Origin: Anaerolineae bacterium
Lineage (GTDB): Bacteria; Chloroflexota; Anaerolineae; 4572-78; J111
DNA length: 15,202 bases
Direction: 5' to 3'
Assembly (NCBI GenBank): GCA_020433785.1
Contig: JAGRCC010000427.1
Location: 1-15,202, forward strand
Shown in pieces: positions 2 to 15,202 of this stretch. The stretch's first letter is position 1. Every line of letters starts with the position of its first letter. The notes under the pieces were generated by a model, which saw nothing but the letters and a program-made list of their open reading frames with translations, was not told the DNA's origin and searched no databases. The position numbers and the translations under genes are program-made.

Positions 2-2536
2 GCGCTGGTGACCAAGTATCTCACGTTGCTGCTGCCGCTGGTGATCGTGTATGTGGCCTGGGTCAAAGTGGCAGAGTCGCAAGGTCGCAAGGTTGCAGGG
101 GAGCAGGGGAGGGGGGCCGCAAGTAATCAGATAGCAGATAGACAACTGGGAGGTGCATCCCCTGGAATACGCCCTACGCAACACGTACCACGTACTACAC
201 GCCCAATCTACTATTATTTAGCCCAAGCCCTTATCGCTTACCTGCTGATAATCACCCCCTGGTTTGCCTACCTGGTGACCAACTTCAATGAAATCGACAA
301 CTATGGGCCGGTTTTAGGGACATTGGCCCCGCTAATTCGCGGCGACGGCAGCGACCGAACTGTCGAGGGTATTTTTGCCTGGTTAAGCGGCGGACAAGCC
401 CCGGAACCGGCTTATATCGACCAGCAAAGCTACTCCATAGGACAAATTTTAGCCGAACTGCCGTTGACATTCTGGGGCAACCCGATTGTCGAACCTTATC
501 CGCTCAATTGGTTCGTGATGTTAATGGCGCTGATGACGATCCTGGCGATCATCGGCCTCATTATTTATTTTCGATTGACGATTGACGATTTACGAGCAAA
601 GACAGCAGAACGCTCAAAGTTCATAATTCATAATTCATCCTTCATAATTCTCATTTTAACCTGCCTGCTGCCGGTGCCGTTTATGCTCATCCGGCTTTTC
701 GGCGCGCGCGATGCACTGGAGGCGGTTCAAGGGCGTCACATTTTATTTCTGGCCGGTCCGGCCTTTGCCATACTCTTTGTATACGGTTTTACTATTTTTT
801 GGATCACAATTTTGCCGCGCCGCGGCGTTAACATTTTACGATTTACCTTTTATGGCCTATTGGCCCTCCTTCTTACCGCCAGTATGGCCCAACTACTTTT
901 TATGAAACAGGCTTATCCGCCGCTGCTGCCGGTTCGGACAACGACCGCGCTCCCTGCTGGAGTCGAGCCGCCGCCTCAGCCTGTCCGTTTGCCGAATAAT
1001 GCAGCCTTGGTGGGTTATCGCCTGTTGGATGAAAACGATCAAGCCTTGCATATCGAAATGTTTTGGCAGGGCAGCGATAGTTGGGCCTTAGAAGATTACC
1101 AAACCAAACTGGCATTGGTTGACGCCGGGGGACACATACAATCGGAGTGGTTTGGCTATCAAACCCAAGCGCACTACCCTACGCGCGCCTGGGAAACCGG
1201 CGATACCATCCGCGACGAGGGCTGGCTGCCGCTCGTTGGCCTGCCGGCGGGTGACTACCGTATCCAACTCCAAATCCTGGGCGAAGCCGGCCCGATCACC
1301 GACTGGCAGACAGTCGAGCGTTACGCCCTAAAACAACCCATATCACCCCCGTCTACCAACTCCGACTGGCTTCTCTGGCACAACGGCCAAATTACCATCC
1401 GCCCGCCTCTCCTCCGCGAACGCGAAACCGTCCAACTGACACCCCCCAATTACCAATTACCAATTACTCAATTACCCAATCTCCAATCTCCAATCTCCAA
1501 TCTCCAACTCCCTATCTCCTCCACCTTCACCATCCCGCCCCAGTGGCCCGCCGGCGACTACACGCTCACCGCCGATCCCTCAAGTCCCATTTTTCGCATC
1601 GCCGAAAGCGCGCGCAACTTCGATCTGCCGGTCATCAGCCACCCGCTTGATGTCAACTTTGCCGGTCACATTAAGCTGCTTGGTTACGATTTGGCTACGC
1701 ACCGGGCCGAACCGGGCGGCGGGTTACCCGTAACCTTGTATTGGCAAGGACTGGATTGGATGGGCGAAGAATTTATCATCTTTAATCGACTGCTGGATAA
1801 TCAACAGCTTGCCTGGGGCGGTTACGATCGTATGGCCCAGGAAAATTACAGCACCTTGCTCTGGGCGCCGCAGGAGATCATCGTTGATGGCTTCGCCGTG
1901 CCGGTTGCGCCGGATGCGCCGGACGGAGTCTACACCTTGAGCATAGGCTGGTATCAACAGGTCGATGATGGTTCGCAATCGTTACCCATTCTGCGGCCTG
2001 AAACGGGTGAGGTAACCGACGCAACCGCTGTGACCATCGGTCCGATCAAGGTTGGCGGCCCACCACCGGGAGCCACCGTCGATCAAGTCGAGCCGCAGTT
2101 CGAAGTGAACACTGTTTTGGGAGACAAAATTAGGCTGTTAGGTATCGATCGGAACTTCTCGACCTCTTGTGAAACCCTTCCCCTGACTGACTGTCCTCTA
2201 TCACTCACGTTTTACTGGATCCCCATCGCCCCGATAGATGTTGATTACACTGTTTTTGTTCATGTGCGAAACGAGGCCGGGGAAACCGTGGCTCAAAATG
2301 ATCGGCCTCCGCTGGAGGGCGCTTATCCAACGAGTTTGTGGGATGAAGGAGAAATAATTCAGGACGAGCTATCTATCCCCCTAAACCCCATCGAACCGGG
2401 GCGCTATGACATTGCGATTGGCATGTACGATCATTCAACCGGCACCCGGTTGGTGGTAGATGGAACGGCCGACAATGCCATCGTCGTGTATTCCTTTGAG
2501 TTCCCGACTGATGCCGATATTCATGACAGTCAGTAG
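2..2536 (+). CDS. GT-C-fold membrane glycosyltransferase-like protein with C-terminal beta-sandwich modules (5' partial)
   Basis: The frame is open from the first bases. The GTG at 8 is probably internal: the visible start aligns with about residue 226 of the 1023-aa paralogue at 8145-11216, so some 220 residues, including the catalytic DE loop, lie upstream. Numbering from GTG 8, residues 1-300 are membrane helices and loops, with the family motif QGRH at 241-244. The rest is exported and beta-rich: a first sandwich (about 330-435), a second irregular one (450-535), then module A (about 548-680, GGYDR and YSTLLW motifs) and module B (about 700-828, VFVH, YPTSLW and GEII motifs) joined by a GPIKVGGPPPG linker. 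Likely role: lipid-linked sugar transfer outside the membrane, substrate unknown. Oddities: three loops or strands are built from 7-8 bp tandem repeats, and module B has an extra loop with two cysteines (C721, C729). Being a GT-C paralogue is well supported; its chemistry is inferred. Confidence 0.85.
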   Translation, partial: ALVTKYLTLLLPLVIVYVAWVKVAESQGRKVAGEQGRGAASNQIADRQLGGASPGIRPTQHVPRTTRPIYYYLAQALIAYLLIITPWFAYLVTNFNEIDNYGPVLGTLAPLIRGDGSDRTVEGIFAWLSGGQAPEPAYIDQQSYSIGQILAELPLTFWGNPIVEPYPLNWFVMLMALMTILAIIGLIIYFRLTIDDLRAKTAERSKFIIHNSSFIILILTCLLPVPFMLIRLFGARDALEAVQGRHILFLAGPAFAILFVYGFTIFWITILPRRGVNILRFTFYGLLALLLTASMAQLLFMKQAYPPLLPVRTTTALPAGVEPPPQPVRLPNNAALVGYRLLDENDQALHIEMFWQGSDSWALEDYQTKLALVDAGGHIQSEWFGYQTQAHYPTRAWETGDTIRDEGWLPLVGLPAGDYRIQLQILGEAGPITDWQTVERYALKQPISPPSTNSDWLLWHNGQITIRPPLLRERETVQLTPPNYQLPITQLPNLQSPISNLQLPISSTFTIPPQWPAGDYTLTADPSSPIFRIAESARNFDLPVISHPLDVNFAGHIKLLGYDLATHRAEPGGGLPVTLYWQGLDWMGEEFIIFNRLLDNQQLAWGGYDRMAQENYSTLLWAPQEIIVDGFAVPVAPDAPDGVYTLSIGWYQQVDDGSQSLPILRPETGEVTDATAVTIGPIKVGGPPPGATVDQVEPQFEVNTVLGDKIRLLGIDRNFSTSCETLPLTDCPLSLTFYWIPIAPIDVDYTVFVHVRNEAGETVAQNDRPPLEGAYPTSLWDEGEIIQDELSIPLNPIEPGRYDIAIGMYDHSTGTRLVVDGTADNAIVVYSFEFPTDADIHDSQ
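76..203 (+). repeat. Patch of degenerate 7-8 bp tandem repeats inside the first CDS
   Basis: Octamer units start at 76: GTCGCAAG at 76-83 and 84-91, then the decayed forms GTTGCAGG and GGAGCAGG. The heptamer CAGATAG occurs twice in tandem at 128-141. A third run reads ACGCAAC, ACGTACC, ACGTACT, ACACGCC at 176-203. The patch stays in frame. It encodes roughly 45 polar residues between two predicted membrane helices, where the paralogue at 8145-11216 has a linker of only about 12 residues. It resembles the short tandemly repeated repetitive (STRR) sequences described in cyanobacteria, which normally lie between genes. Confidence 0.75.
572..654 (+). repeat. Second heptamer tandem-repeat patch inside the first CDS
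   Basis: CGATTGA at 572-578 and 579-585 is followed by CGATTTA (586-592) and CGAGCAA. After a 20-base spacer come TTCATAA (620-626, 627-633), TTCATCC (634-640), TTCATAA (641-647) and TTCTCAT (648-654). The patch is in frame. It lies in a predicted loop between membrane helices, just upstream of the QGRH motif, and makes that loop about twice as long as in the paralogue at 8145-11216. Confidence 0.8.
1446..1517 (+). repeat. Third heptamer tandem-repeat patch (CCAATTA / CCAATCT) inside the first CDS
   Basis: Three exact CCAATTA units lie at 1446-1466. Two 8-base transition units follow (1467-1482). Then come three exact CCAATCT units at 1483-1503 and two decayed ones to 1517. Because 7 is not a multiple of 3, the encoded peptide repeats roughly every seven residues and is rich in Gln, Leu, Pro, Asn and Ile (about residues 480-504). 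It takes the place of central strands of the second sandwich domain seen in the paralogue at 2955-5615. This is the cleanest of the three patches. Confidence 0.9.
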
Positions 2537-2582
2537 ATCAATCCCAGGTGACAGTTACTTATTGTCAATAAATCAACATTTC

Positions 2583-2825
2583 GGCGGCATTTTCCGTTGG
2601 AGCACACTCGGCTACAGTGAGTTTCAGGGCGATGAGGTAAAGGCGCTCGTACCGGCGGCTGAGGCCCTCGAAGGACAGGCAGAGGCCCTATTTTACCAGC
2701 GCAAAAAGGGACCGGGCGAGATTGTCGTGCCTATACTGGTCTGGTCGATGACCGGGCTCATCTGCTTCCGTCGCCACGAACAGAGCCGGGCGATGGCCTT
2801 CTGCTCATGTGCTCTTTTGAAGTAG
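2583..2825 (+). pseudogene. Decayed N-terminal fragment of a GT39-type glycosyltransferase
   Basis: The frame reading GGC at 2583 encodes a recognisable first-loop region of a GT39/PMT-like enzyme: GYSEFQGDE followed about 27 residues later by KKGPGEIVVP. FQGDE is the acidic DE loop and KGPGE is a companion motif known in this family. No membrane helix or plausible start precedes it, and resemblance fades after about 2760. The frame ends at TAG 2823-2825. An ATG-led frame could be opened at 2460, but it would overlap the 3' end of the first gene and lack any family N terminus. No other gene in the window has this head type, so the parent was a further array member or was copied from elsewhere. 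The 46 bases between 2537 and 2582 show nothing else. Confidence 0.65.
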
Positions 2826-2828
2826 ACG

Positions 2829-2888
2829 GGCCAAGAATTTGTCATATTTAATCGGTTGCTGGATAATCAACCCTTTGTCTGGGGACAG
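2829..2888 (+). pseudogene. Fragment of a C-terminal beta-sandwich module (module A)
   Basis: Directly after the TAG that ends the previous fragment, and in the same frame, about 20 codons read GQEFVIFNRLLDNQPFVWGQ and end at TGA 2889-2891. This matches module A of the first gene (EEFIIFNRLLDNQQLAWGG, around residues 587-605), including long runs of identical DNA. The N-terminal fragment therefore abuts a C-terminal fragment with the whole gene body missing, as expected from an internal deletion or a recombination scar. The bases from 2892 to about 2933 may hold further decayed module sequence, but I cannot align them with confidence. Confidence 0.7.
2839..2867 (+). promoter_or_regulatory. 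Candidate sigma70-type promoter for the downstream operon
   Basis: TTGTCA (2839-2844) and GATAAT (2862-2867) each match the bacterial -35/-10 consensus at 5 of 6 positions and are 17 bases apart. Transcription would start near 2874, about 80 bases before the TTG start at 2955. The pair lies wholly within the module A fragment, and the matching coding stretch of the first gene has a similar pair (TTATCA, GATAAT), so it may be a coincidence of coding composition. Confidence 0.3.
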
Positions 2889-2942
2889 TGATGACCGTTG
2901 TGGAACAATCGACTAAATGGGTCCCCTTAATTACGAGGTGGT

Positions 2943-2946
2943 GGAG
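2943..2946 (+). promoter_or_regulatory. Shine-Dalgarno site that decides the TTG start of the next gene
   Basis: GGAG lies 8 bases upstream of TTG 2955, in a purine-rich stretch that also contains GAGG at 2935-2938. The first in-frame ATG, at 2985, has no such site near it. This favours the TTG start. Confidence 0.6.
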
Positions 2947-2954
2947 ATTAAATA

Positions 2955-5615
2955 TTGAACGGTAACCATGCAATACCATTCAATATGCGATTCAATGCTC
3001 GATTAGGCTTATTACTCCTAATGGTTGTTTATTTAGGCTTTGGCCTGGCCTTCAGCCAACGGCTGCACTTCAGTCGAGCTTTAGATGAGGGCTATCATCT
3101 GGAACTGGTCACCTTTATCAAACAGCATGGACGCCTGCCTATCACCTTTGATGAACGCTTGCAGATGGCCCGGGCCGACCTGCCCCCTCTCTATCATCTG
3201 CTGGTGGCGATATTGCCTCCTAAAATTGATCCCACGAGCGATCAACCCGATTTTAGACTTTACAAGGACTCATTTCGGTATCAGGTCATTGATGCCCCTC
3301 CTGGGCAGCGCTGGTCGGTTGACACCGAAGATTTAACTTGGCCTTATTACGGTCAATTTTTAGCCTGGCAACTGGGGCGAGGCTTGTCGCTGCTTTTTGG
3401 AGCCGCGACGCTGGTCGTCTTATTTTTGATACTACAAGAAATTCCGCTAGGAAAACGGCCTTTGACCTCGATTGTTGGTGTCGCACTTTTGGCGTTTACG
3501 CCGCGCTATTTAATCTTGAGCGCCGCCTTAAATGATGATACGCTGCTTGGCTTGACGGCAGCGATTTGTTTCTGGATGCTGATCAAGATCGTCAAATCGC
3601 CTACGCGTTGGCTGCCCATGCTCGTTTTAGGGGCTGCATTAGGTATTTCAATGACGATTAAATATTCTTTGGCGTTGTTGCCGCTTGAAATCATCGTGGT
3701 GTTGGGTTTTCTGACCTGGCAGCAAAAGCTGGGCTGGCTTTGGTTAGCCAAACGCGTGACGGTGATTGGTGGCATGGCCGCCTTGTTTTCCAGTTGGTGG
3801 TTCGGCTGGAATATTTATTATTTTAACACCGTGGCCCAAGATGGGGTGGTAGTGGGCCTCATCCGGGCCTTGTTTTCTGGGGGCTATAATGCCACCCTCA
3901 ACAGCATTGGCGACGTTTTATCCGGGGGGCAGCTAGACGCCTCGACTGAAATAGTCAACGAATCTTCAGCAACATTAGCGCAATGGTTGCGCCTAACCTT
4001 TTTATCGTTTTGGGGATTTAGTATCGATGACCGGATTCCCCTATCACCCTTGGTGTTCTGGCTGGTAGGGCTTATTTTGGTGGCGGCGGCCTGGGGTAAC
4101 TGGCGCTTATGGCGGCGCGATAGCCGATCACACCGCTGGCTGCTGCTGGCCGGGTTTCACCTGTTGCTGTTGGGGGTCATACCCCTGCTCCGGTTTGTTA
4201 CCTCAGGCCGATTAGGCCAAACCGCTCAGGGTCGGCATATTCTTGTCCCGGCGGCGGCGGCCATTATAGCGCTGTTGGTGTGGGGCTTGGCCGCAGCCTT
4301 TCCTCAACCCCGTTGGCAGCGATCGGTCTTTGCCGCCGTCATCGTCATGATGGGTGTCTGGTCAGCGGCGCATCTTTATCAGTTAACCAACCAACCCCCA
4401 TCACTGCTGCCGATGCGGACCGTCGCCTTCGCCGCTGACTGGCTGCCGCAAACCGTCGATCAGGGTCAATTTGGCGAAGGGGTCGAACTCGTGAGTTATG
4501 CGTTAACGCCCCAACCGGCTACCGGCCAGTTGGTCGTTGAACTGGCCTGGCGATCGCTGGGGTACGTTAACGAAAACTATCTCATGGCCTTAACCCTCAT
4601 CGATGCCAACGGTAGGGCGGTATCGCAATGGACGGGGTATCACGGAGCCGGCCAAATCCCGACCCTGGCTTGGACTCCTGGCGATACAATTTTTGATCGG
4701 CTTTCGCTACCACTGCCCAACTTGCCGCCCGGCGAATACCATTTGCAGGTGCAGGTACTGGCCGATGGCCAACAGCTTTTGTTGCCAACCGGCTCGGATA
4801 CGTTGACGCTGAAGCCGATAACGCTCGATGAGCCGTCTACGTTGCCTTTCACTCATCGGCTGACATCTGAGACCAACGGCGCTGCTTTGGCTTTTTCAGT
4901 GTGGCAAGCTAACGGGCCGGATCCGGCTGAACAACCGCACTTTCGCTATCCTCACACCATTTCGATTGTGGTTGAGCCGTCCACACAGACTTTCTCGCTG
5001 GACTTGATCGATAGTCAAGGTACAGCCTGGTCGCCTACACGTACTGTGAATGGGGTGTACACCTTTGTCATTGGCCCACGTTGGCCTACCGGTGATTACC
5101 AACTGGCTATTAATGACGCCGTTCAGCCAGATCCCATCCTGTTTGTAGAAAACTGGCAGCCCCGCCGCTATACCCTGCCGCCGGAGATCGAAACTCCTTT
5201 AGTCGCCAACTTCGCCAACCAGATTTTGCTGGCCGGTTATACGCTGCCCCAAAAAACCGTGACCGCTGGTGAGCCGTTTCCGATCACCTTCTACTGGCAA
5301 TCGCCGGAGCGGTCGCCGCAGGCTGATTTTATCCAGTTTAACAATTTGCTGGACAGCGCCGGCCATGTCTGGGGCGGCTATGAGCGGTTGCCTTTGGAAA
5401 ATTACAGTACCTTGTTGTGGGACGCCGGCGAAGTGGTGGTCGATGGCTACACTGTTCCGGTCGATCCGGATGCCCCGCCGGGCCAATATTATTTAGATGT
5501 GGGTTACTACATTGTCGTTGGCGGCAGCGCCGTCAATTTGCCGTTGGTCATCGATGGCGCGATGTCTGATACCAGCAGTATCAGCGTCGGGCCGATCGAA
5601 GTTGTAGCGCCGTAA
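2955..5615 (+). CDS. GT-C-fold (DUF2142/PMT-like) membrane glycosyltransferase with three C-terminal beta-sandwich domains
   Basis: The start is TTG 2955, chosen from the GGAG at 2943; ATG 2985 would remove ten residues before the first helix. The 886-aa protein opens with a membrane helix. An outside loop follows with the acidic motif LDEGYH (D44, E45) and DLPPLYH at 75-81, then further helices with NDD at 193-195 and QGRH at 425-428. This is the head of GT-C enzymes that use polyprenyl-linked sugars. From about residue 505 it is exported and beta-rich: a first sandwich (505-605), a second (635-730), and module A (748-882, GGYER and YSTLLW motifs). It ends at GPIEVVAP, exactly where the paralogues at 2-2536 and 8145-11216 have the linker into module B, so module B is missing. 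The next gene starts 34 bases later. Acceptor and donor are unknown. Confidence 0.88.
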   Translation: MNGNHAIPFNMRFNARLGLLLLMVVYLGFGLAFSQRLHFSRALDEGYHLELVTFIKQHGRLPITFDERLQMARADLPPLYHLLVAILPPKIDPTSDQPDFRLYKDSFRYQVIDAPPGQRWSVDTEDLTWPYYGQFLAWQLGRGLSLLFGAATLVVLFLILQEIPLGKRPLTSIVGVALLAFTPRYLILSAALNDDTLLGLTAAICFWMLIKIVKSPTRWLPMLVLGAALGISMTIKYSLALLPLEIIVVLGFLTWQQKLGWLWLAKRVTVIGGMAALFSSWWFGWNIYYFNTVAQDGVVVGLIRALFSGGYNATLNSIGDVLSGGQLDASTEIVNESSATLAQWLRLTFLSFWGFSIDDRIPLSPLVFWLVGLILVAAAWGNWRLWRRDSRSHRWLLLAGFHLLLLGVIPLLRFVTSGRLGQTAQGRHILVPAAAAIIALLVWGLAAAFPQPRWQRSVFAAVIVMMGVWSAAHLYQLTNQPPSLLPMRTVAFAADWLPQTVDQGQFGEGVELVSYALTPQPATGQLVVELAWRSLGYVNENYLMALTLIDANGRAVSQWTGYHGAGQIPTLAWTPGDTIFDRLSLPLPNLPPGEYHLQVQVLADGQQLLLPTGSDTLTLKPITLDEPSTLPFTHRLTSETNGAALAFSVWQANGPDPAEQPHFRYPHTISIVVEPSTQTFSLDLIDSQGTAWSPTRTVNGVYTFVIGPRWPTGDYQLAINDAVQPDPILFVENWQPRRYTLPPEIETPLVANFANQILLAGYTLPQKTVTAGEPFPITFYWQSPERSPQADFIQFNNLLDSAGHVWGGYERLPLENYSTLLWDAGEVVVDGYTVPVDPDAPPGQYYLDVGYYIVVGGSAVNLPLVIDGAMSDTSSISVGPIEVVAP

Positions 5616-5649
5616 TTGGGGGCGAATTTTCTACGATGAGAAGCATCCG

Positions 5650-8148
5650 ATGGACACCCGAACAATAAGGCTCTCGCTTATCATTTGCCTATGGCTAGCC
5701 TTTTTCCTCCGGGTCTGGGGCCTCGATTTTGGGCTGCCTTATGATTTTCACCCCGATGAACACCAATATGTCGAGGCGGCAATCGATTGGCATACCACCG
5801 GCGCCCTAGAACTGAGTTTCATCAACCCCCCGCTTTACACCTATCTGTTGATGGGCGCGTATTGGCTTTGGTTGATCGTTTCCCCTTTTGAGCCAACAAC
5901 CGACTGGGCTTCGACCGCCTATTTTTTCGCGCGACTGTGGAGTGTGGCCTTCGGCGTACTGACGGTGGCGCTGGCTTACCCATTAGCTAAACGGCTCTAT
6001 AACCGCAGCGCCGGCTTATTGGCCTCAGCTTTGTTGGCCGTTCTCTTTCTCCCGGCCCGCGAAGCTCATTTTGCGGTAAACGATACCATAGCGGCCTTTT
6101 TCGTCTTATTGGCCATCTACTTTAGCGTCATTATTATCAATCGCCCGCAGCGCCGATTCTATCTACTGGCCGGGTTGGCCGTAGGCTTAGCGGCTTCGGC
6201 TAAACTTACGGGCGGGTTGGTTGTCTTGGCTTTGTTGGCTGGTCATCTTGCTGCCCAGTGGCGCAATCCCCATACAATGGATACGACTAAGTCCCCTGCT
6301 ATAGCGCACTTGGGGGGTGGTCTGCTGATGGCGCTGGCAACATTTTTGCTGGTCTTCGGGCATATCTTTGGCGATATCCCTCATTTTCTTAACACCATTG
6401 TCGAGCATCTTCAGTTTGGCAGCGAGGGTTACAAGGGCTTACGGATGTCCCCCACGGCGGGCTGGGGGTTCTATCTTCAAGTGCTCAGTTGGGGCATCGG
6501 TTGGTTGGCTCTGGTCGCGGCTGTCGTGGCGCTTGGTCTGGTTGTATGGCGGCAGCATTGGCCGGGCATGGTTGTAGCCGTCTTTCCATTGGTTTTGTTT
6601 CTCTATATGGGCGCTCAAAAAATTCTGTTTGCTCGATTTTTGCTGCCGGCCGTCCCCCCATTGATCGTCTTAGCGGCGGTGGGTCTTGTTTGGCTCGAAC
6701 AAAGCGTCCCTATGTTTCACCGGCATCGATACCTATTCTGGCCGGCTGTCGTCGGCCTCTTGATCGCCCAGCCGCTCAGCAATCTGCTCTGGTTCGATCA
6801 TTTGCTGACCCTGCCCGACACGCGTGAGCTAGCCACACAGTGGTTTAGCGATCAATTCCCTGAAGATACCGTCATTGTTAAAGAAAGTTACGCTCTCTTT
6901 CCACCCACGCACCTTCTTGGCGGTAGTTGGCCCTACAAAATCATTCAGATCGACGAGCGCGGCCCCACCCGCAACGAGACCGATCACTACGTTCGCCACA
7001 AAACCGAATTCATCGCGATTAGCAATTTCACCTTCGACCGGGTTCGCGCCGATCCGGCTGACGAGGCGACTCGACTGGCTCAGCTCGCGTATCTGGACGA
7101 GCAGGCCGAGCTCATTCAAACCTTCGATCCCTACCAAGAGGCCGGTCAGCCGGGCTGGTTTTATCTTGATGAAATATACGGTCCCGCCGGCGAGACCCTG
7201 CAACGGATACGTCCCGGTCCGCTGCTCAAAATTTACGCGCTGCCCTACGAAAATCAACCCCGCCAATACGAAGTTCCGCCCATCTCCGTGCCGGTAGAAG
7301 CCAATTTTGATGACAAACTCCTGCTGCTTGGCTACGACTTACCGGCCCGACGAGCGCAGCCGGGCGAAACTATCCCGCTCACGCTCTACTGGCAGGCGCT
7401 CTCTCGAATGAATCAGACCTACGTTATATTCACGCGAGTGCTCGATGCCCGGCAGCAGCGGTGGGGCGGCTATGATCGCTGGCCTCAAGAAACAGCGAAT
7501 ACGGTATTGTGGCACGAAGGCGAGGTCGTCATCGACACATTTGGCATCCCCGTAGACGCCGACGCGCCCAGCGGCGTCTATACGATCGATATCGGCCTGT
7601 ATGATGATGCCGACCCGATGGGTTCGCCCCTGCCGATTTTGCACGATGGCCAGGTCACCGGCCAGAACAGCGTCCGGCTTGGTCCGGTGAAAATCGGTGG
7701 CCCGCCGCCTGAGGTATTGGCTTCGGCTGAGGCGGTCGCTCCCGATGTGGCCCTGACCGTGCCATTGGGAACCCCACCGGCCATTCTGCTGCGCGGTTAC
7801 AGTCTCGAGCCGCTTGATGGAGCGCTGAAAATAAAACTCACCTGGGAGAGTCTAAGCCAGACGCCCATCGACTGGTCGGTGTTCGTTCATCTGCGCGATG
7901 CGTCAGGCCAGACAGTCGCACAGAAAGACGGCCCAGCCGGAGGCTCGGTCAATTATCCATCGTCGTTGTGGGATACCGGCGACGTAATTATCGACGAAAT
8001 CCTCATACCCTTACCGGCGGATCTGGCCGCGGGCCAATATCACCTGGTCATCGGCCTCTACAACCTGAGCGACGGCGCCCGCCTGGCGGTACCGGACTCG
8101 CCACAAAACGAGATCATGTTGACCACCTGGGAGTCACCCGGATCATGA
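5650..8148 (+). CDS. PMT/GT39-type membrane glycosyltransferase with two C-terminal beta-sandwich modules (A-B)
   Basis: ATG 5650 is preceded by a weak GAGAAG site at 5638-5643. The 832-aa protein has a classical PMT_2/GT39 head: one helix, then the acidic loop HPDEHQY (34-40, D36/E37), INPPLYTYL at 58-66, the second motif REAHFAVNDT (137-146) and FARFLLPAVPP (327-337). Residues 391-417 begin the exported part, resembling the region GT39 proteins carry after the last helix. Module A spans about 548-681 and module B about 700-820, joined by GPVKIGGPPPE. The head differs from those of the genes at 2955 and 8145, but modules A and B are closely related to theirs, which points to domain exchange. 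Likely role: sugar transfer from a polyprenyl-phosphate donor outside the membrane, target unknown. Its stop overlaps the next start in ATGA. Confidence 0.9.
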   Translation: MDTRTIRLSLIICLWLAFFLRVWGLDFGLPYDFHPDEHQYVEAAIDWHTTGALELSFINPPLYTYLLMGAYWLWLIVSPFEPTTDWASTAYFFARLWSVAFGVLTVALAYPLAKRLYNRSAGLLASALLAVLFLPAREAHFAVNDTIAAFFVLLAIYFSVIIINRPQRRFYLLAGLAVGLAASAKLTGGLVVLALLAGHLAAQWRNPHTMDTTKSPAIAHLGGGLLMALATFLLVFGHIFGDIPHFLNTIVEHLQFGSEGYKGLRMSPTAGWGFYLQVLSWGIGWLALVAAVVALGLVVWRQHWPGMVVAVFPLVLFLYMGAQKILFARFLLPAVPPLIVLAAVGLVWLEQSVPMFHRHRYLFWPAVVGLLIAQPLSNLLWFDHLLTLPDTRELATQWFSDQFPEDTVIVKESYALFPPTHLLGGSWPYKIIQIDERGPTRNETDHYVRHKTEFIAISNFTFDRVRADPADEATRLAQLAYLDEQAELIQTFDPYQEAGQPGWFYLDEIYGPAGETLQRIRPGPLLKIYALPYENQPRQYEVPPISVPVEANFDDKLLLLGYDLPARRAQPGETIPLTLYWQALSRMNQTYVIFTRVLDARQQRWGGYDRWPQETANTVLWHEGEVVIDTFGIPVDADAPSGVYTIDIGLYDDADPMGSPLPILHDGQVTGQNSVRLGPVKIGGPPPEVLASAEAVAPDVALTVPLGTPPAILLRGYSLEPLDGALKIKLTWESLSQTPIDWSVFVHLRDASGQTVAQKDGPAGGSVNYPSSLWDTGDVIIDEILIPLPADLAAGQYHLVIGLYNLSDGARLAVPDSPQNEIMLTTWESPGS
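8145..8148 (+). other. ATGA start/stop overlap
   Basis: ATG 8145-8147 overlaps TGA 8146-8148. GGGAG at 8129-8133 lies 11 bases upstream. This arrangement usually means translational coupling, and it fixes the downstream start. The longer frame reaching back to 7968 would sit inside the preceding gene and encode an Arg/Pro/Gly-rich shadow peptide. Confidence 0.75.
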
Positions 8149-11100
8149 CCCGTCGGCAAGCTTACGAACGTCTGGGTTTGATTGTGGCGATTTGCATCGT
8201 GTTGGCTGGGCTGCACTCGTTCGCGCTGCCGCTGCACAAAGCGGCGGACGAAATCGCCCACTTTCGTTACAGCCGCTTCATCGCGCAGCATGGTCGCCTG
8301 CCGCTCACCCCGGCGGAGCGTGAAGCCGCCGATTATAAATCGAACCAGCCCCCCCTCTATCACGCGCTGGTGGCGGCGCTAACTGGCTGGAGCGACAGCC
8401 CCGGCCCGCCCCATCTCAAGTTTGTGTGGGAGTCGGCCCGCGCTGATTTGGCCCAAGAACTGCTGGATACCAAACGACTGGCCAACACCCTCGACGAGCG
8501 CCCCCCCTATCGCGGCGCGGTGCTGATGTGGCATCTGGGTCGAGGCGTATCGATCCTGTGCGGGCTAGCTGTCATTATGGTGACATTCTTGACCGCGCTC
8601 GAACTGTTTTCCGGCCGCTATCGCCCGGCGGTGATTAGCTCGGCTATCATTGCCTTTATCCCGGCTTTTGTTTTCTACAGCGCGGCCCTCTCCTACGAGC
8701 CGCTGTTCGCGCTAACTATTGGACTTTACTTTTTGATGCTCGTTAAAATTGCGAAAGGCGATACCCGTCTTCGAAATTTTCTGGTGCTGGGCGGGTTGAT
8801 GGGGCTATCGGTGATGGTTAAGTACGCCGGGGTCATCTTGCCGGTTGAGGCGGCGGCGGTGTTGGCCTATCTGGGCTGGAGCGAACGCTGGGGAGTGTGG
8901 CTTTGGCTACGCCGATTAGCGATGGTCGGTGTGGCGGCGGTGGCGGCCTCGGCCTGGTGGTTTCTGTTTTTGATGATCAACTTTAACGAGGTCGAGCAGT
9001 TGGGACCGATTGTCGGCCTGCTCAAACCGATCATCGCTGGCGGCGGCGATACCACCCAAAATTACATTGCTTACCAGTTGACGGAAGGCGAGATCGGCGC
9101 GGTTCAAACCTTTCAGATGACATCGGAGCCGCTGTGGGCCTGGGCGCTGCAAATTTTTCAAACCTTCTGGGTGGAAGAGATTGGCAGCTACCCGCTCGGT
9201 TGGGCTGGGCCGGTATTGATGGCCGTGACTTGTGTGATCGCTGTGTTAGGTGTCGCGCGTATTTGGCAGCGCCAACCGAAAGAACGATTAATTGTGGCTT
9301 TATTGGTTTTTCATTTGGCGGTTTTCTGGGTGCTGCCGCTGGTCCGCTTTCTCATTCAGGGGCTTCTTAGTCAAACCGCACAGGGTCGGCACGTGCTGTT
9401 TCCAACGGCGACGATGCTGCCCCTGCTGCTGGTTTATGGTTGGCAAGGTTGGCTATCGAAAAAAAGGCAGGCGCAGATGGCCATGGCGGTGGTCTGTGGC
9501 CTGGCCTGTTGGAGTGTGGCTCAACTGTTTTGGATTAACACTTATTACGCCAACCTTTATCTCCCGATTCGCACCACGGCAGACGTTGAACAGCAAATGG
9601 CGCATCCGATCCGACGAGGCTTTGATGGTCGGCTGTGGCTCATCGGCTACCGGACGGAAATCGATCCGGACAAAAGTCTGCTGGATTTGACGTTGTACTG
9701 GCAAAACTCGTCCTACGTCGATGAAGATTTCGAGCGGGTTATTCGACTGGTTCAAGATGATAGGGTCTATTTGGAATGGTCAACCTATCCTACCAACGGG
9801 CGTTATCCGACGCGCATCTGGGAAGAGGGCGAAACCATCATCGATGAAGTGACGCTACCGCTGATCGATGTACCGCCGGGTGATTATCAGATCCAACTTC
9901 AACTACGCGGCTTTGATGGTCCCCTGCCGGTTGATGGCGGCGAAATGGTCACTCTGGATAAGATTACCGTACCCGCTACCGGCTCAATCGAGCCGGATAT
10001 GACGATGGCGCTGTTCATTGACCAACGCGAAGTTGTCAGCGGGGTCTCCTTGTGGCAGCCGGAGCCTTATCGACAACTATATTTGCCTGAATATATTCCC
10101 CGTATGGCTATTCCCATCGTGTGGCAGGGCGAACTGGAGGCCAATGAAAAAATACAGTGGCTTCTGGTCAGCGAAGACAATATAGCCTATCCTGCTTATA
10201 CCGCCTCGCCCCATTTCTCTTCCTTTATGGTTGGACCAGCTTGGTTGTCGGGCGATTATCGTCTTCGGGCCGAGGTGTGGCGAGATGACGCGGTGCTGGC
10301 CTCTCAGGAAACGCCGCCGATTTTGACCCTCTTTAACGAGCGACCTCGGCCGGCAACGCCGCCTACCCCCACCTATCCGCTGCACGCCAACTTTGGTAAT
10401 CAGATAGAGTTGTGGGGTTACGACCTACCGGCTCGCTCTTTGTCGTCGGGCCAGGGGATACCCATGACATTTTATTGGCAGGGGCTGCATTCTACAGCTA
10501 AAGATTTTACGGTATTTACCAAATTATTCGACGAGCAGCAGCAGTTGTGGGCCAGTGTCGAGCGCTTGCCCGCCGATGGCTACCACACTTTTTACTGGGC
10601 CGAGGGCGAAGTGGTCACCGACAGCTTTGAACTGCCGATTGCTGCGACCGTCCCCGCCGGCGTTTACCATCTTAATGTGGGTCTATATGAACAAATTGAC
10701 CAGGCGGCGGTGTCGCTGCCGCTGGTGGTCGATGGCCGGCCGAGCGAGGTGACCAGCGTCACCTTTGGCCCGCTCAAAATTGGTGGACCGCCGTCGGGTC
10801 TTGTGGTCGATCATATTTCCCCCGACTATCCTGTCGATGTAAAATTTGGCGATGTGCTGCGCTTAAAAGGGTATGATAAACCGATTTATGACGACCAAAC
10901 CTTGCGCCTTAAACTGTACTGGCAAAGCGTCGCTCAGACCGATACCGATTACACGGTGTTTGTTCATATTCGAGACCGGTCCGGTACGGTGATCGCGCAG
11001 ATGGATCGCCCGCCGACCAATAACCAATATCCAACTTCGCTGTGGAGTCCGGGCGAAATCATCCCCGATGAAATTTTTGTCCCGCTGCCGGATGCCCAAA

Positions 11101-11216
11101 ATTTAGATGATTACGATATTTCGGTTGGGCTGTACGATTTTACCACGGGCGCGCGGCTCTCGATAGCGGATACCGATGAAGATAACCTCGTATTGTTACA
11201 CCCGATGACTGAGTAA
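8145..11216 (+). CDS. GT-C-fold (DUF2142/PMT-like) membrane glycosyltransferase with four C-terminal beta-sandwich domains
   Basis: This 1023-aa protein is the fullest example of the architecture in the window. A first helix leads to the acidic loop AADEIAHF (D35, E36), followed by SNQPPLYH at 66-73, several helices, and QTAQGRHVLF at 411-420. Exported domains follow: a first sandwich (about 488-595), a second (620-730), module A (746-878) and module B (895-1005), with GPLKIGGPPSG between A and B. Where the paralogue at 2955 has NDD, this protein reads SYE (183-185), a change in a usually acidic position. Its head aligns with the visible part of the first gene in the window, and both share the same domain order. 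The next gene begins 1 base after its TAA, so the two are almost certainly co-transcribed. Likely role: lipid-linked sugar transfer outside the membrane; specificity unknown. Confidence 0.9.
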   Translation: MTRRQAYERLGLIVAICIVLAGLHSFALPLHKAADEIAHFRYSRFIAQHGRLPLTPAEREAADYKSNQPPLYHALVAALTGWSDSPGPPHLKFVWESARADLAQELLDTKRLANTLDERPPYRGAVLMWHLGRGVSILCGLAVIMVTFLTALELFSGRYRPAVISSAIIAFIPAFVFYSAALSYEPLFALTIGLYFLMLVKIAKGDTRLRNFLVLGGLMGLSVMVKYAGVILPVEAAAVLAYLGWSERWGVWLWLRRLAMVGVAAVAASAWWFLFLMINFNEVEQLGPIVGLLKPIIAGGGDTTQNYIAYQLTEGEIGAVQTFQMTSEPLWAWALQIFQTFWVEEIGSYPLGWAGPVLMAVTCVIAVLGVARIWQRQPKERLIVALLVFHLAVFWVLPLVRFLIQGLLSQTAQGRHVLFPTATMLPLLLVYGWQGWLSKKRQAQMAMAVVCGLACWSVAQLFWINTYYANLYLPIRTTADVEQQMAHPIRRGFDGRLWLIGYRTEIDPDKSLLDLTLYWQNSSYVDEDFERVIRLVQDDRVYLEWSTYPTNGRYPTRIWEEGETIIDEVTLPLIDVPPGDYQIQLQLRGFDGPLPVDGGEMVTLDKITVPATGSIEPDMTMALFIDQREVVSGVSLWQPEPYRQLYLPEYIPRMAIPIVWQGELEANEKIQWLLVSEDNIAYPAYTASPHFSSFMVGPAWLSGDYRLRAEVWRDDAVLASQETPPILTLFNERPRPATPPTPTYPLHANFGNQIELWGYDLPARSLSSGQGIPMTFYWQGLHSTAKDFTVFTKLFDEQQQLWASVERLPADGYHTFYWAEGEVVTDSFELPIAATVPAGVYHLNVGLYEQIDQAAVSLPLVVDGRPSEVTSVTFGPLKIGGPPSGLVVDHISPDYPVDVKFGDVLRLKGYDKPIYDDQTLRLKLYWQSVAQTDTDYTVFVHIRDRSGTVIAQMDRPPTNNQYPTSLWSPGEIIPDEIFVPLPDAQNLDDYDISVGLYDFTTGARLSIADTDEDNLVLLHPMTE

Positions 11217-11217
11217 T

Positions 11218-13431
11218 ATGGCCATGCTCAAACGACTGGTAACCCACAAAATCACCATTACCGCCCTGGTTGTTTTCCTATTAGCGCTCCTTCCCCGCGT
11301 TTTGGGGTTAAGCCAATTCTTGACCACCGACGAACGCCTATGGTGGGGCCGCTCTCGCGATTTTTTTGGGGGCATCATCAGCCCTGAATTTACCTGCCCC
11401 GAGGTGGTTGAAAATGAACCCAGGATGGTGCTGGAGGCGGGTACCGGGCTGGCCTGTACCCTGCGGACGGGGCATCCCGGCGTAATCACCATGTGGAGCG
11501 GCAGCCTGGGCATTTGGCTGTATTATCTAAGCAGCGAGGTCGATCAATCCTTGCTTGAATTTGTTACCACCTTACCCGTTGACCCGATTGATCCGTCCAG
11601 TATCTTCTGGCTGCGACTGCCCACGGCGGTCAGCTATGCGGCGTTTGCTGCGCTCGTGTTTTTAATTCTGAATAAAATGGTGGCACAAGCTCGCCACGGC
11701 TACTGGGTGGCGCTGTTGGCGGCCCTGTTTCTGGCGCTGTCACCATTTAATATTGCCTTATCGCGTGTGCTGCACACCGATGCCCTGGAAACAGTTTTGG
11801 TCACGCTGACTGTGCTTGTCGCCTTTTATTACTGGACTCATTCTCCGGCGGCGCGTACCTGGCTGTTGGTTTCCGGAGCGTTAGCCGGCGCCAGTTTTCT
11901 GTCCAAAACACCGGCCCTTTTTACCATGCCGTTTATGGCCTTACTGGGCCTTTGGGCTATTGGCCAGCGATGGTCGGCCGGCCAAACTCGTTCTCAGAGC
12001 GTGGCGTTAGTGCGGCGCGTTTTTATCGATGGGCTTCTGTGGTTCGCTGCTGCCCTAACCGTAACCAGCTTATTGTGGCCGGCGTTGTGGATAATCCCGA
12101 ACACCGTCATCGATATTGTGGTTACAATGAATTTTGGTTACGCTAACCAGGGCCATGTTAAGGGCAATTTCTTCCTGGGGAGCATTTCGGACGATCCGGG
12201 TGTCTGGTTTTATCCGGTCAATTGGCTGCTGCATGTCACGCCGCTGGTGTTGGTCGGGGTGCTGCTGGGGTTGCTGTTCTGGGTAATCGGTTCGTCGTCA
12301 ATGGGAGTCCCTCGGGAGCAGAACAGCCGCTTGTCCGGCCTGTGGCGTCGTTTGGGATATCGGCCGGGGGCAACGTCGATCGATACCTTATTTTTCTTGT
12401 CGCTGCTATTCGCTATTTTGTTTACGCTGTTTTTAATGACCAGCAGTAAAAAACAAGATCGTTATTTGCTGCCGGTCTATCCGTTTCTGCATATTGTGGC
12501 GGCTATAGGCTGGGTTTGGCTGGGCGACCAACTGGTCCGGCTGCCAAAGCTACGCGGCTGGTCAATCGAGCACTACTATTTGCGGCCGTTGGTCGTGGTG
12601 ACAATTGTTTTGTACGGCCTGATGCTGGCCCCCACCTATCCTTATTATTTTACCTACTTTAACCCCCTGTTAGGCGGCCTCAACACCGCCGCCCAAATAA
12701 CCACCGTCGGCTGGGGCGAAGGACTGGAGCAGGCGGCTAACTATTTAAACCAGAAACCGCAGGCCGACAAATTGACGGCGGTCTCTTGGTATGGTTCAGC
12801 CTTTACACCCTATTTCGTTGGCACCAGCGCCGATTATTTCGAGCGGAAAGGTCCCGTCATCAGCGCCGATTATGCCCTGGTGTACATTAACCAAAAACAG
12901 CGCCGATTACCGGACGACGGTTTTTTTCAATTTCTAGCACAGCAGCCGTTGGAACGCGAATTCAAACTCAATGGTGTGCCTTATATATGGCTGTACCGCA
13001 TGCCGGGTGTGGCTTATTCGTTTGAGAATCAGCGATACGACGGAGTGGCCACCCTGCTGGGTTGGGAATATCTCTCTCCGATGGCGAGCGTCCCCCCGGT
13101 GGTGCGGCCCGGCGATAAATTAGATATTGGCTTGTGGTGGGAATATGAGGGCAAGTCACCGGATGAGGCGTTTTTCATCTGGCTGATTGGACCGGACTAT
13201 GGCGTCTGGAGCCGAACGGTCACCGCCCCAACCCCGGACGCTGGCAATCCTGATGGCTGGGAACACGGCCAAATCATCGCTGAGCGGGGCACGCTGGCGA
13301 TTCCGGTTGATGCCCCACCCGGCGACTACCGGCTGTTGATGGGGTTTTACCCCGAAACGCCAGCTAACCCTGATACGCTGTTGTTTTTTGAACCGGAAGA
13401 TACGCCGATGGGCGTGCAGGTCGTCGAATAG
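11218..13431 (+). CDS. GT39-type membrane glycosyltransferase with one C-terminal beta-sandwich domain
   Basis: ATG 11218 follows the previous stop by one base; a second in-frame ATG at 11224 is also possible. The 737-aa protein has one N-terminal helix and then the acidic motif TTDERLWW (36-43, D38/E39). The first outside loop contains TGHPGVITMW (84-93). Then come ALSRVLHTDAL (180-190), several helices, the GT39 hallmark KQDRYLLPVYP (412-422), and TYPYYFTYFNPLLGG (473-487) followed by GWGEGLEQAANYL (498-510), a conserved stretch in this subgroup. A single divergent sandwich covers about 605-725. The only two cysteines, C60 and C80, both fall in the first outside loop. It is shorter than its neighbours because it lacks the A-B pair. 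Donor is probably polyprenyl-phosphate-linked; acceptor unknown. Confidence 0.9.
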   Translation: MAMLKRLVTHKITITALVVFLLALLPRVLGLSQFLTTDERLWWGRSRDFFGGIISPEFTCPEVVENEPRMVLEAGTGLACTLRTGHPGVITMWSGSLGIWLYYLSSEVDQSLLEFVTTLPVDPIDPSSIFWLRLPTAVSYAAFAALVFLILNKMVAQARHGYWVALLAALFLALSPFNIALSRVLHTDALETVLVTLTVLVAFYYWTHSPAARTWLLVSGALAGASFLSKTPALFTMPFMALLGLWAIGQRWSAGQTRSQSVALVRRVFIDGLLWFAAALTVTSLLWPALWIIPNTVIDIVVTMNFGYANQGHVKGNFFLGSISDDPGVWFYPVNWLLHVTPLVLVGVLLGLLFWVIGSSSMGVPREQNSRLSGLWRRLGYRPGATSIDTLFFLSLLFAILFTLFLMTSSKKQDRYLLPVYPFLHIVAAIGWVWLGDQLVRLPKLRGWSIEHYYLRPLVVVTIVLYGLMLAPTYPYYFTYFNPLLGGLNTAAQITTVGWGEGLEQAANYLNQKPQADKLTAVSWYGSAFTPYFVGTSADYFERKGPVISADYALVYINQKQRRLPDDGFFQFLAQQPLEREFKLNGVPYIWLYRMPGVAYSFENQRYDGVATLLGWEYLSPMASVPPVVRPGDKLDIGLWWEYEGKSPDEAFFIWLIGPDYGVWSRTVTAPTPDAGNPDGWEHGQIIAERGTLAIPVDAPPGDYRLLMGFYPETPANPDTLLFFEPEDTPMGVQVVE

Positions 13432-13449
13432 GTGGCTCAGAATCTACCG

Positions 13450-15202
13450 ATGAGGCAAGGCAACGTTTTTACTTGGATCAAACAATTTGGGCCGGCAGCG
13501 GCGGCCCTGTTACTGGTGTTAGCCGGGGCGTTTTGGCTGTGCAGCCGCTACCTATGGGCTAACGGCATCACTTACGACGAAGGCCACTGGTTGATGTTTG
13601 GCCTGTTGGCCCACGCCGATTATGCGCCTTACCGCGAAATTTTCGTCGGCATCCCGCCGCTGGCGTTGCTGGTCATTCAACTCGGAGCGGCGTTGTTCGA
13701 TGTCACCCTGGCCGTGCGTTACCCGATGATGGTGCTCAGTTTAGTGGGGGTGGCCGCCCTTTATGGGTCGTTTCTGCCCTGGCAGGGCACAATTCCTTTT
13801 TGGAGTGGGCTGCTGGCGGCCTCGATTCTGGCCTTCGAGCCGCAATTTCTGGCGGGATCGGCCACCATTTTAGCCGAAGCGCCGGCCATCTCGGCCGCGA
13901 TTGTCTCATTTGTGCTGGCCTTGGCCTATCAACGCGGCGGGGGGAGAGTGTGGCTGTTTCTCTCCGGCGTGGCGTTTGGGCTGAGCCTGGCACTCAAGCT
14001 GTTTGCGGTGTTTCTGCCAGGGGTAATCGCCGTGCTGCTGGTGATCGTAGCGTTGACCCATCCGGGCGAGCCCATCAGTCGGCGGCTGCGTCGGTTGGGG
14101 ATCGATGGCTTATTGTGGTCGCTTGGGGTGCTATTGCCCTGGCTTATCTTGGCCTTGATGTATGATCTTCAGGCCATGTTCCATCAGATTTTTCTGTTCC
14201 GTTTGTCATTTCGAGAATTAAATTTTGTCGAGGGTGAAGCCAAATTTGGTGAACACCTGGTAGTGGTAGGGGAGATGCTGCGGCGGCGCTGGCCGCTGTT
14301 GCTGGGCGCGGCGGCGGGAACCTGGCTTGGCTGGCGGCAGCGCCGCCCCGATATTTGGTTGTGGGCAGTGTGGTTGGGGTTGGCTATCGTCCCCCTCATC
14401 TGGCAGGCTCCGCTGCGAGACCGGTATGTGGTGATGCTGCTGCCGCCGTTGGCTGCATTAACCGGCTACGCGCTGGCTTGTGGCCTGGCCAAACTGTCGG
14501 CCTCGCTGGTCAACAAGGGCCCGTGGCTCCGTCCGGTTGTCCTGCTTGCCGCTGTTTTGGGCCTGTACGGAGTCATATTAACGCCGGCCATCCGGCTGGC
14601 ATCCGCCCGGCCTTTAGCCGATCCCGACGGTTATATCTTCGATTATTTAACCACTGAGCGCCGGGATGCCATCGATTTTGTCCGGACAACCACGTTTGCC
14701 GGTGATTGTATCATTACCGATGATCAACGATTTGCTTTCGCCGCCGATCGGTTAGTGCCGCCGTGGTTGTCGGAAACGTCTGACGCCCGATTGATGGCCC
14801 GTTGGCTGATCGATACCGATGACATTATACGGCAGGCGGCCGAATACAACTGTCCCGCGACCGTATACGTCTATCGGCGCTTTCGCGATCACTTACCGGA
14901 CCTGGCCGAACGGTTACGCCAACTCTATTTCTTGGAAATCGCCTTTACGGATGAAGTTCGGGTTTTTACGGGGCTTAAATCTGTAACCACCCCGCCGTCG
15001 CAACCGCTGGCTGTGACGTTTGGCGAGACAATAGCCTTGCAAGGGCTTGATTTGACCCCCAGACCGTGGATGCCGGGGCAGCGGGTGCAGTTGGCTACCT
15101 ACTGGAGTGCTTCGCAGCCGCCGCCCCGGAGTTATAAAGTTTTTTTACAACTGCGCCATGATCAAGGTGAAGTCGTCGCTTCTTATGACCATTTTCCATT
15201 TG
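13450..15202 (+). CDS. GT39-type membrane glycosyltransferase (3' partial, runs off the window)
   Basis: The frame is open from the start to the last base, giving 584 codons. ATG 13450 has AGGTGG 14 bases upstream (13430-13435). An in-frame GTG at 13432, directly after the previous TAG, is an equally possible start and would add six residues. After one helix comes the acidic loop ITYDEGHWL (D43, E44) and then YREIFVGIPPL, a strongly conserved signature of this subgroup. RDRY at 323-326 corresponds to the RYLLP motif of the neighbour at 11218. The exported region contains CIITDDQ (residues 420-426) and DRLVPPWLSETS (433-444). A beta-sandwich begins near residue 518 and is cut by the window end. 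It is the fifth gene of the operon-like run; function as for the other GT39-type proteins, substrate unknown. Confidence 0.88.
   Translation, partial: MRQGNVFTWIKQFGPAAAALLLVLAGAFWLCSRYLWANGITYDEGHWLMFGLLAHADYAPYREIFVGIPPLALLVIQLGAALFDVTLAVRYPMMVLSLVGVAALYGSFLPWQGTIPFWSGLLAASILAFEPQFLAGSATILAEAPAISAAIVSFVLALAYQRGGGRVWLFLSGVAFGLSLALKLFAVFLPGVIAVLLVIVALTHPGEPISRRLRRLGIDGLLWSLGVLLPWLILALMYDLQAMFHQIFLFRLSFRELNFVEGEAKFGEHLVVVGEMLRRRWPLLLGAAAGTWLGWRQRRPDIWLWAVWLGLAIVPLIWQAPLRDRYVVMLLPPLAALTGYALACGLAKLSASLVNKGPWLRPVVLLAAVLGLYGVILTPAIRLASARPLADPDGYIFDYLTTERRDAIDFVRTTTFAGDCIITDDQRFAFAADRLVPPWLSETSDARLMARWLIDTDDIIRQAAEYNCPATVYVYRRFRDHLPDLAERLRQLYFLEIAFTDEVRVFTGLKSVTTPPSQPLAVTFGETIALQGLDLTPRPWMPGQRVQLATYWSASQPPPRSYKVFLQLRHDQGEVVASYDHFPF

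Follow-up and report, generated by a model that had tools for sequence, protein, structure and literature searches.

A heptanucleotide array inside a glycosyltransferase-like gene of an Anaerolineae bacterium as a probable copy of a dispersed repeat tolerated in protein loops

Contig JAGRCC010000427.1 of an Anaerolineae bacterium was analysed over a stretch of 15,202 nucleotides, here called the window. Its first gene, a 5'-truncated open reading frame (ORF) of 844 aa at 2..2536 on the + strand, is PMT_2/glycosyltransferase family 39 (GT39)-like by its homologues and carries a tandem array of seven-base units (heptads) at 1446..1511 of the same strand. We conclude, with a probability of about two in three, that this array is one copy of a dispersed heptad repeat similar to the short tandemly repeated repetitive (STRR) sequences, which spreads as blocks and is tolerated in loops, most likely as a passenger or linker. 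More generally, the observations suggest that repeats in the DNA find new use as protein linkers, repeatedly at equivalent loops of related proteins and, in other genomes, inside basic enzymes as well. As to the task of the array, we think that there is nothing specific beyond that of a linker or spacer.

The array and its words in related genomes

The array starts with three CCAATTA units, passes through two 8-base units, CTCAATTA and CCCAATCT, into three CCAATCT units, and ends in decaying units (CCAACTC and CCTATCT); it encodes residues ~482-504, PNYQLPITQLPNLQSPISNLQLP. Tandem Repeats Finder called repeats at 1446-1476 (4.3 copies) and at 1476-1511 (5.3 copies). The lag-7 identity score of the array was 29/35; simulating the window 200 times with a first-order Markov model gave 24 at most. 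The frame 2-2536 is open through the array and beyond it. A preliminary description of this DNA had reported this succession of units in an intact frame, in a gene that stays open past the repeat, and on both points it is borne out. An AlphaFold2 model of the 844-aa ORF (mean predicted local distance difference test score, pLDDT, 84.2) showed helices to residue 304 and strands, in beta-sandwich domains, beyond; the residues encoded by the array lie in the predicted beta-sandwich part, where the block mean pLDDT is 72-84. A Foldseek search with the model against the PDB returned mostly multi-domain beta-sandwich proteins with low template-modelling (TM) scores among the 50 matches listed, and because of these scores we claim no fold beyond a likeness to such proteins.

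The distribution of heptad arrays was determined in a relative, genome G001 (Chloroflexi bacterium isolate Dive96_bin10.46), which contains the orthologous locus L001, from a systematic sample of 80 contigs (564,118 bp). The sample comprised 80 of the 81 contigs numbered 5 to 805 and ending in 5; C165 was left out, as it was already in a second set of 20 contigs chosen for matches to the window protein. We found 59 lag-7 runs in the 564 kb, against 0-10 runs at other lags. Mechanically called ORFs contained 18 of the 59 arrays (0.038/kb) and the remaining 41 lay outside (0.457/kb), a 12-fold gap in density. Tandem seven-base units, present in few copies and above chance, are common to the window and to G001, and the view that repeats of this type are mostly intergenic holds for that genome. 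It does not hold for glycosyltransferase (GT)-like genes: in the 20 chosen contigs, GT-like ORFs carried 51 arrays in 73.5 kb (0.694/kb; 18 of 34 ORFs), whereas other ORFs carried 10 in 95.9 kb (0.104/kb). These densities indicate that the repeat type is mostly intergenic, yet very common in the GT-like family.

The array units of G001 are AT-rich (GC 0.308 versus 0.494), and 49 of the 59 contain AAT or ATT, where 26.7 would be expected of GC-matched words. For 50 of the 59 arrays the unit was shared with another array, whereas GC-matched random words gave a mean of 9.0 and a maximum of 21 in 200 draws. Orientation within ORFs was also uneven: 27 arrays read AAAATCC on the coding strand and two the reverse, ATTTTGG. 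Both are stop-free; the hydrophilic reading (NPKSKIQ) prevails.

Single units also recur at many dispersed loci per genome in relatives. In G001 a 25-base AATCCAA pattern matched 89 times forward and 78 times in reverse (matches overlap, so that the sites are fewer) and its backward control not at all; 24 further genomes of the order gave 0-5 matches apiece. Matches to the looser pattern (AATNNNN)3AAT were found in 22 of the 25 genomes, often far above the backward control (565+648 versus 83+113 in G003; 1108+1001 versus 419+407 in G001); the excess was not seen in G002 and was less clear in G015, and no match was found in about 10 Mb of G023, G024 and G025, which belong to the order of G001, versus hundreds in several others. 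Of 400 Chloroflexota genomes, 12 contained the word of the window itself as (CCAATCT)3. G405 had 147+110 matches, as against 0-14 elsewhere, and the backward control matched twice, both times in G366. No orthologue of the window protein was found at 1e-40 in the seven CCAATCT-bearing genomes searched, a search run without a positive control.

The arrays also tend to begin and end at fixed points of the unit. At sites that have no homology to window proteins there are 18 AAAATCC arrays, those fetched by pattern being admitted only if at least 31 bases long; 16 of the 18 started in phase 1 or 2, which are adjacent, and 11 ended in the modal phase. Among 27 arrays in loci that were not fetched by repeat pattern, 17 shared the start phase and 16 the end phase, and 10 were 32 bases long. 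Frequent array lengths are 26 and 32-33 bases, with some of 39. Eight 32-base copies were found in ORFs: six share a single reading frame, and the two other frames have one copy each; common descent of some of these copies is possible, because all eight lie in contigs chosen for homology.

Local slippage during replication, starting from chance seeds and with seven as the favoured slip length, would need no dispersal, and the varying lengths of the arrays are consistent with it. However, units recur at unrelated sites with locked phases, and the contrast between the 167 matches to the 25-base pattern in one genome and none for its backward control counts against such seeds; we consider this explanation unlikely. 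Together, the shared words, the locked ends and the many unrelated sites make the copying of short blocks probable, rather than slippage alone.

Arrays in other proteins and in one loop of homologues

The word of the window is not confined to GT-like genes. Of 13 (CCAATCT)3 loci examined, 11 lie in some open frame, not all of which are likely genes. In five loci the array falls within the Pfam-matched stretch of a protein: RsmA (L162), MoeA (L165), RecJ (L166), a copper P-type ATPase (L168) and AlaRS (L176). All five hosts, identified by Pfam, match their families with strong scores. Compared with solved relatives, AlaRS has a repeat-coded insert of nine residues (LRSQSPISN), RsmA has about 25 unaligned residues ahead of the NLPYY motif, and the copper ATPase has gained five residues and lost two, a net gain of three. 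In the rsmA gene (ORF 976-1887 of L162, - strand), from about residue 112, the CCAATCT-type array adjoins an AAAATCC-type array just before NLPYY.

Seven is not a multiple of three, and the enrichment of arrays in GT-like genes raises the question of a contingency locus, in which the gain or loss of one unit would shift the frame and toggle a surface glycosyltransferase. Phase variation by a heptanucleotide has been reported for HMW1A, an adhesin of Haemophilus. The arrays described here, however, are short (3-5 exact units) and lie within the gene, and the linker is ungapped between the window gene and its homologue P0003 at 66% identity. Moreover, the same arrays are present in AlaRS, RsmA and RecJ, the loss of which should do harm, and because of these housekeeping hosts we regard phase variation as distinctly unlikely.

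The closest named relatives of the window protein are proteins from metagenome-assembled genomes of Anaerolineae/Anaerolineales, the best at 68% identity (P0002). The truncated ORF itself has no Pfam match, but most of its close homologues carry PF13231, among them P0002 and P0003, both annotated as glycosyltransferase family 39. Of 98 proteins, P0001-P0078 (P0079-P0098 being left out) were used, with the window protein included, for the alignment, the period scan, the tree and the linker labels. The alignment reveals a variable loop between a strand, ERETxQxT, and a conserved stretch, LxGPDG...WANFII (consensus of 52 sequences). In many rows the peptide in this loop has a seven-residue period, in families typified by NLQSPIS, NPKSKIQ, FTIHNSQ, NYELRTT and DRRPPTA, which is the expected product of a seven-base DNA repeat. 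A strict scan of the 78 proteins detected 42 stretches of period 7, against 0.4 per shuffle, and 0-8 stretches for periods 4-6 and 8-10. Most of the period-7 sites cluster: seven lie upstream of residue 1 of the window protein, and others at about residues 40-69, at 190-216, at 259-289 (the largest group), at 474-509 (n=4) and at 718-739.

At the DNA level, orthologues show other heptad families in the loop of the window array: (AAATCCA)4 in L001, GACCGCC units in L107 and interrupted AAATCCA units in L108; no heptad array was found at this loop in the DNA of L104, L105, L106, L109 and L110. The words of the window, CCAATCT/CCAATTA, form an array in L001 in a different loop of the same gene. 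The preliminary description was too narrow, as other loops and other genes are affected too. A repeat of another kind, about five copies of a 21-base unit (GCGGTTGCCGGTTGGCAAGCG and variants), lies in frame at ~2690-2800 of L001.

On a tree of the 78 built without the linker, labelling by eye assigned 27 rows to linker families, with at least 19 family changes, and labelling by rule 21 rows, with 20 changes (17 for presence); at least one label made by eye (P0012) is doubtful, and counts of this kind do not distinguish gains from losses. On this tree the sister of the window protein is P0002 (support 99), and P0003 comes next (100). P0002 has, by eye, a different heptad-like peptide together with the hairpin that follows the loop, and is left unlabelled by the rule. 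P0003 has the linker of the window protein without a gap, its seven-residue periodicity partly decayed and its hairpin unrecognisable. As the window protein and P0003 share the linker, the array is old enough for common inheritance, and P0002 must have changed or been converted. On the evidence of the aligned sequences, the array in the window gene occupies the place of the next conserved beta-hairpin, and between the window protein and P0003 the repeat has turned into an inherited linker. That the DNA repeat of the window is nevertheless near perfect suggests ongoing homogenisation.

The preliminary description had the array replace the middle of a beta-sandwich domain that is intact in a paralogue. 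In its favour, the LxGPDG...WANFII stretch beside the loop is unrecognisable in the window protein; however, the WAN/WVN motif is absent from 13 of the 78 rows, the window protein and 12 others, so that its loss alone is unremarkable. The paralogue (2955..5615, + strand; 886 aa, PF13231), in which no heptad array was detected, does align across the array region, but the alignment is weak inside it (31% identity overall).

The same peptide without a DNA repeat, as would be seen if the linker were an ordinary conserved, functional one and the repeat incidental, occurs once, in P0003 as judged from the protein, and the peptide varies in the remainder of the 78. The ungapped peptide of P0003, with its decayed periodicity, would fit such a linker, as would FTIPP, common to P0001 and P0003 where most others show a WANFII-like stretch. 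Yet the sister P0002 has another peptide and a hairpin at that place, and the loop family changes about 19-20 times over the 78 rows, a lack of conservation that counts against a family-wide role; we find this explanation improbable.

Block copying as a proposed mechanism

To our knowledge, the route by which bacterial heptad repeats spread is still open. In relatives, the arrays of Chloroflexota genomes of this group draw on a limited vocabulary of seven-base words, often with AAT, among them AATTACC, AATCTCC, AATCCAA and AATCGTA. We propose that short pre-formed blocks are copied to new sites, where they may lengthen, shorten and homogenise by sevens through slippage or recombination. Arrays within genes would persist if the net change preserves the frame and if they are short or free of stops in the frame that is read, mostly with a hydrophilic reading that lands in a variable loop; the data show a part of this. 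Large GT39-like proteins, with their many variable loops, are a hot spot in the genome of one relative.

Several points weigh against this proposal. The genome-scale evidence comes from relatives and not from the window's own genome. ORFs were called mechanically, and some 'genic' arrays may sit in false N-terminal extensions (for example in L071); 14 of 79 ORF arrays have units that would yield a stop if lengthened. Among the 42 periodic stretches, four at residues 796-821 and one in P0036, at 378, do not represent heptad arrays, and arrays at homologous places in GT-like genes may share a common ancestor. Words that stand next to an array and keep its register (aatcgt ahead of AAATCC in L040, L103, L144 and L148) account for some of the phase lock, and the phases tested on the 18 arrays had first been seen in an earlier count that included 30 pattern-fetched loci. 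The insertion event itself was never caught, as near-identical strains with an empty site were not among the genomes compared. Inspection by eye of the sequences flanking the 18 AAAATCC arrays, without empty sites to set beside them, revealed no target-site duplication. Finally, RVT_1 and Y1_Tnp searches of 25 genomes did not find a driving enzyme.

In these searches RVT_1 matched in 12 of the 25 genomes (11 above the cut-off) and Y1_Tnp in 15 (14 above the cut-off). Neither a reverse transcriptase nor a Y1 transposase tracks the arrays as a driver would, and the array-rich genomes G007, G010 and G012 show neither. Least probable of all is templated synthesis, in which an enzyme with a short internal template would add heptads to broken ends that are then sealed: the fixed phases, the frequent array lengths and the genome-favoured words (167 matches in G001 versus 0-5 elsewhere, 257 in G405 versus 0-14) are consistent with it, but the RVT_1 search gave no match in the array-rich genomes G005, G007, G010, G011 and G012 (whose assemblies may be incomplete), and block copying with slippage accounts for the same data. 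A broader form of the block-copying proposal, that Chloroflexota have an active system by which short heptad blocks, their ends defined and their words favoured by the genome, are written or copied into new sites and have repeatedly built new in-frame loops, even in essential enzymes, as a mobile or templated process of linker writing, is one that we put forward tentatively and hold to be doubtful.

Heptad repeats can be traced within protein genes, where orthologues show different states of one loop, so that gain, replacement and homogenisation become testable. Unrelated proteins can acquire similar loops (PISNLQS, NPKSKIQ, NYQLPIT) without common descent, and this could mislead homology searches.

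Other features of the window and comparison with known systems

The window gene has three further repeat regions, all on the + strand and all different in length between the aligned homologues. A CGATTGA array (3.4 copies, RLTIDDL) at 572..595 encodes residues ~191-198, where a predicted helix (169-199) ends and a stretch that varies in length in the homologues begins. A TTCATAA array (4.4 copies) at 620..650 encodes residues ~207-217, over short predicted helices (205-210 and 212-222); its third unit is TTCATCC, which avoids the in-frame TAA of a pure array (SKFIIHNSSFII). An octad stretch at 76..111, GTCGCAAG followed by GCAGGGGA, lies in a predicted helix (7-45) and in a length-variable region of the homologues. 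An octad array of 11.5 copies of GGAGCAGG in a relative's locus (L003, 4248-4339) is, by eye, of the same family as window positions 95-111. Over the window as a whole (2-15201), six large ORFs follow one another on the same strand, four of them with PMT or PMT_2 Pfam matches. Between the first two, positions 2826-2890 resemble coding positions ~1761-1825 of the first ORF and are, by eye, a paralogue remnant. A plasmid search with the paralogue at 2955-5615 gave no match.

STRR sequences are by definition short, tandemly repeated and repetitive, and they occur in RNase P RNA and in a tRNA-Leu intron. Among the matches listed in a literature search, whose coverage leaves out most subscription journals, no paper dealt with heptad arrays in Chloroflexota genes. 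PMC4692102 describes heptanucleotide families such as STRR in filamentous cyanobacteria, GGGAATC in Xanthomonas and GGGGA(C/T)T in Nostoc. Like these, the Chloroflexota arrays are built on seven-base units that occur at many loci of a genome, with few copies at each locus and an excess outside genes (PMC4692102). Unlike STRR, they belong to another phylum, use other words and recur in frame within genes, at homologous loops.

Rickettsia palindromic elements, as described in a review of miniature inverted-repeat transposable elements (MITEs; PMC10969869), are ~150 bp long and palindromic and lie in frame in unrelated protein genes. The Chloroflexota arrays are likewise dispersed DNA in frame in unrelated protein genes (PMC10969869), but they are direct repeats of about 20-50 bases. 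The recurrent AATC(CAAAATC)4 is by inspection a direct repeat and not self-complementary, and so lacks the terminal inverted repeats or palindrome of MITEs and Rickettsia palindromic elements. In Borg tandem repeats, according to PMC9879509, arrays within ORFs form new, often disordered segments and are frequent in extracellular or membrane proteins. Tandem DNA repeats in ORFs are common to both systems (PMC9879509), but Borg arrays are described there as arising independently, whereas in Chloroflexota many loci and genomes have words in common, and the unit is seven bases long. TAACTGA repeats, reported in PMC4679880 from Beggiatoaceae, Cyanobacteria and Bacteroidetes, have their intragenic copies mainly at the protein periphery. 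They too are a dispersed heptad, patchy over phyla and with a minority of copies in ORFs (PMC4679880). The Chloroflexota arrays differ in that they also lie inside Pfam domains and form several families per genome.
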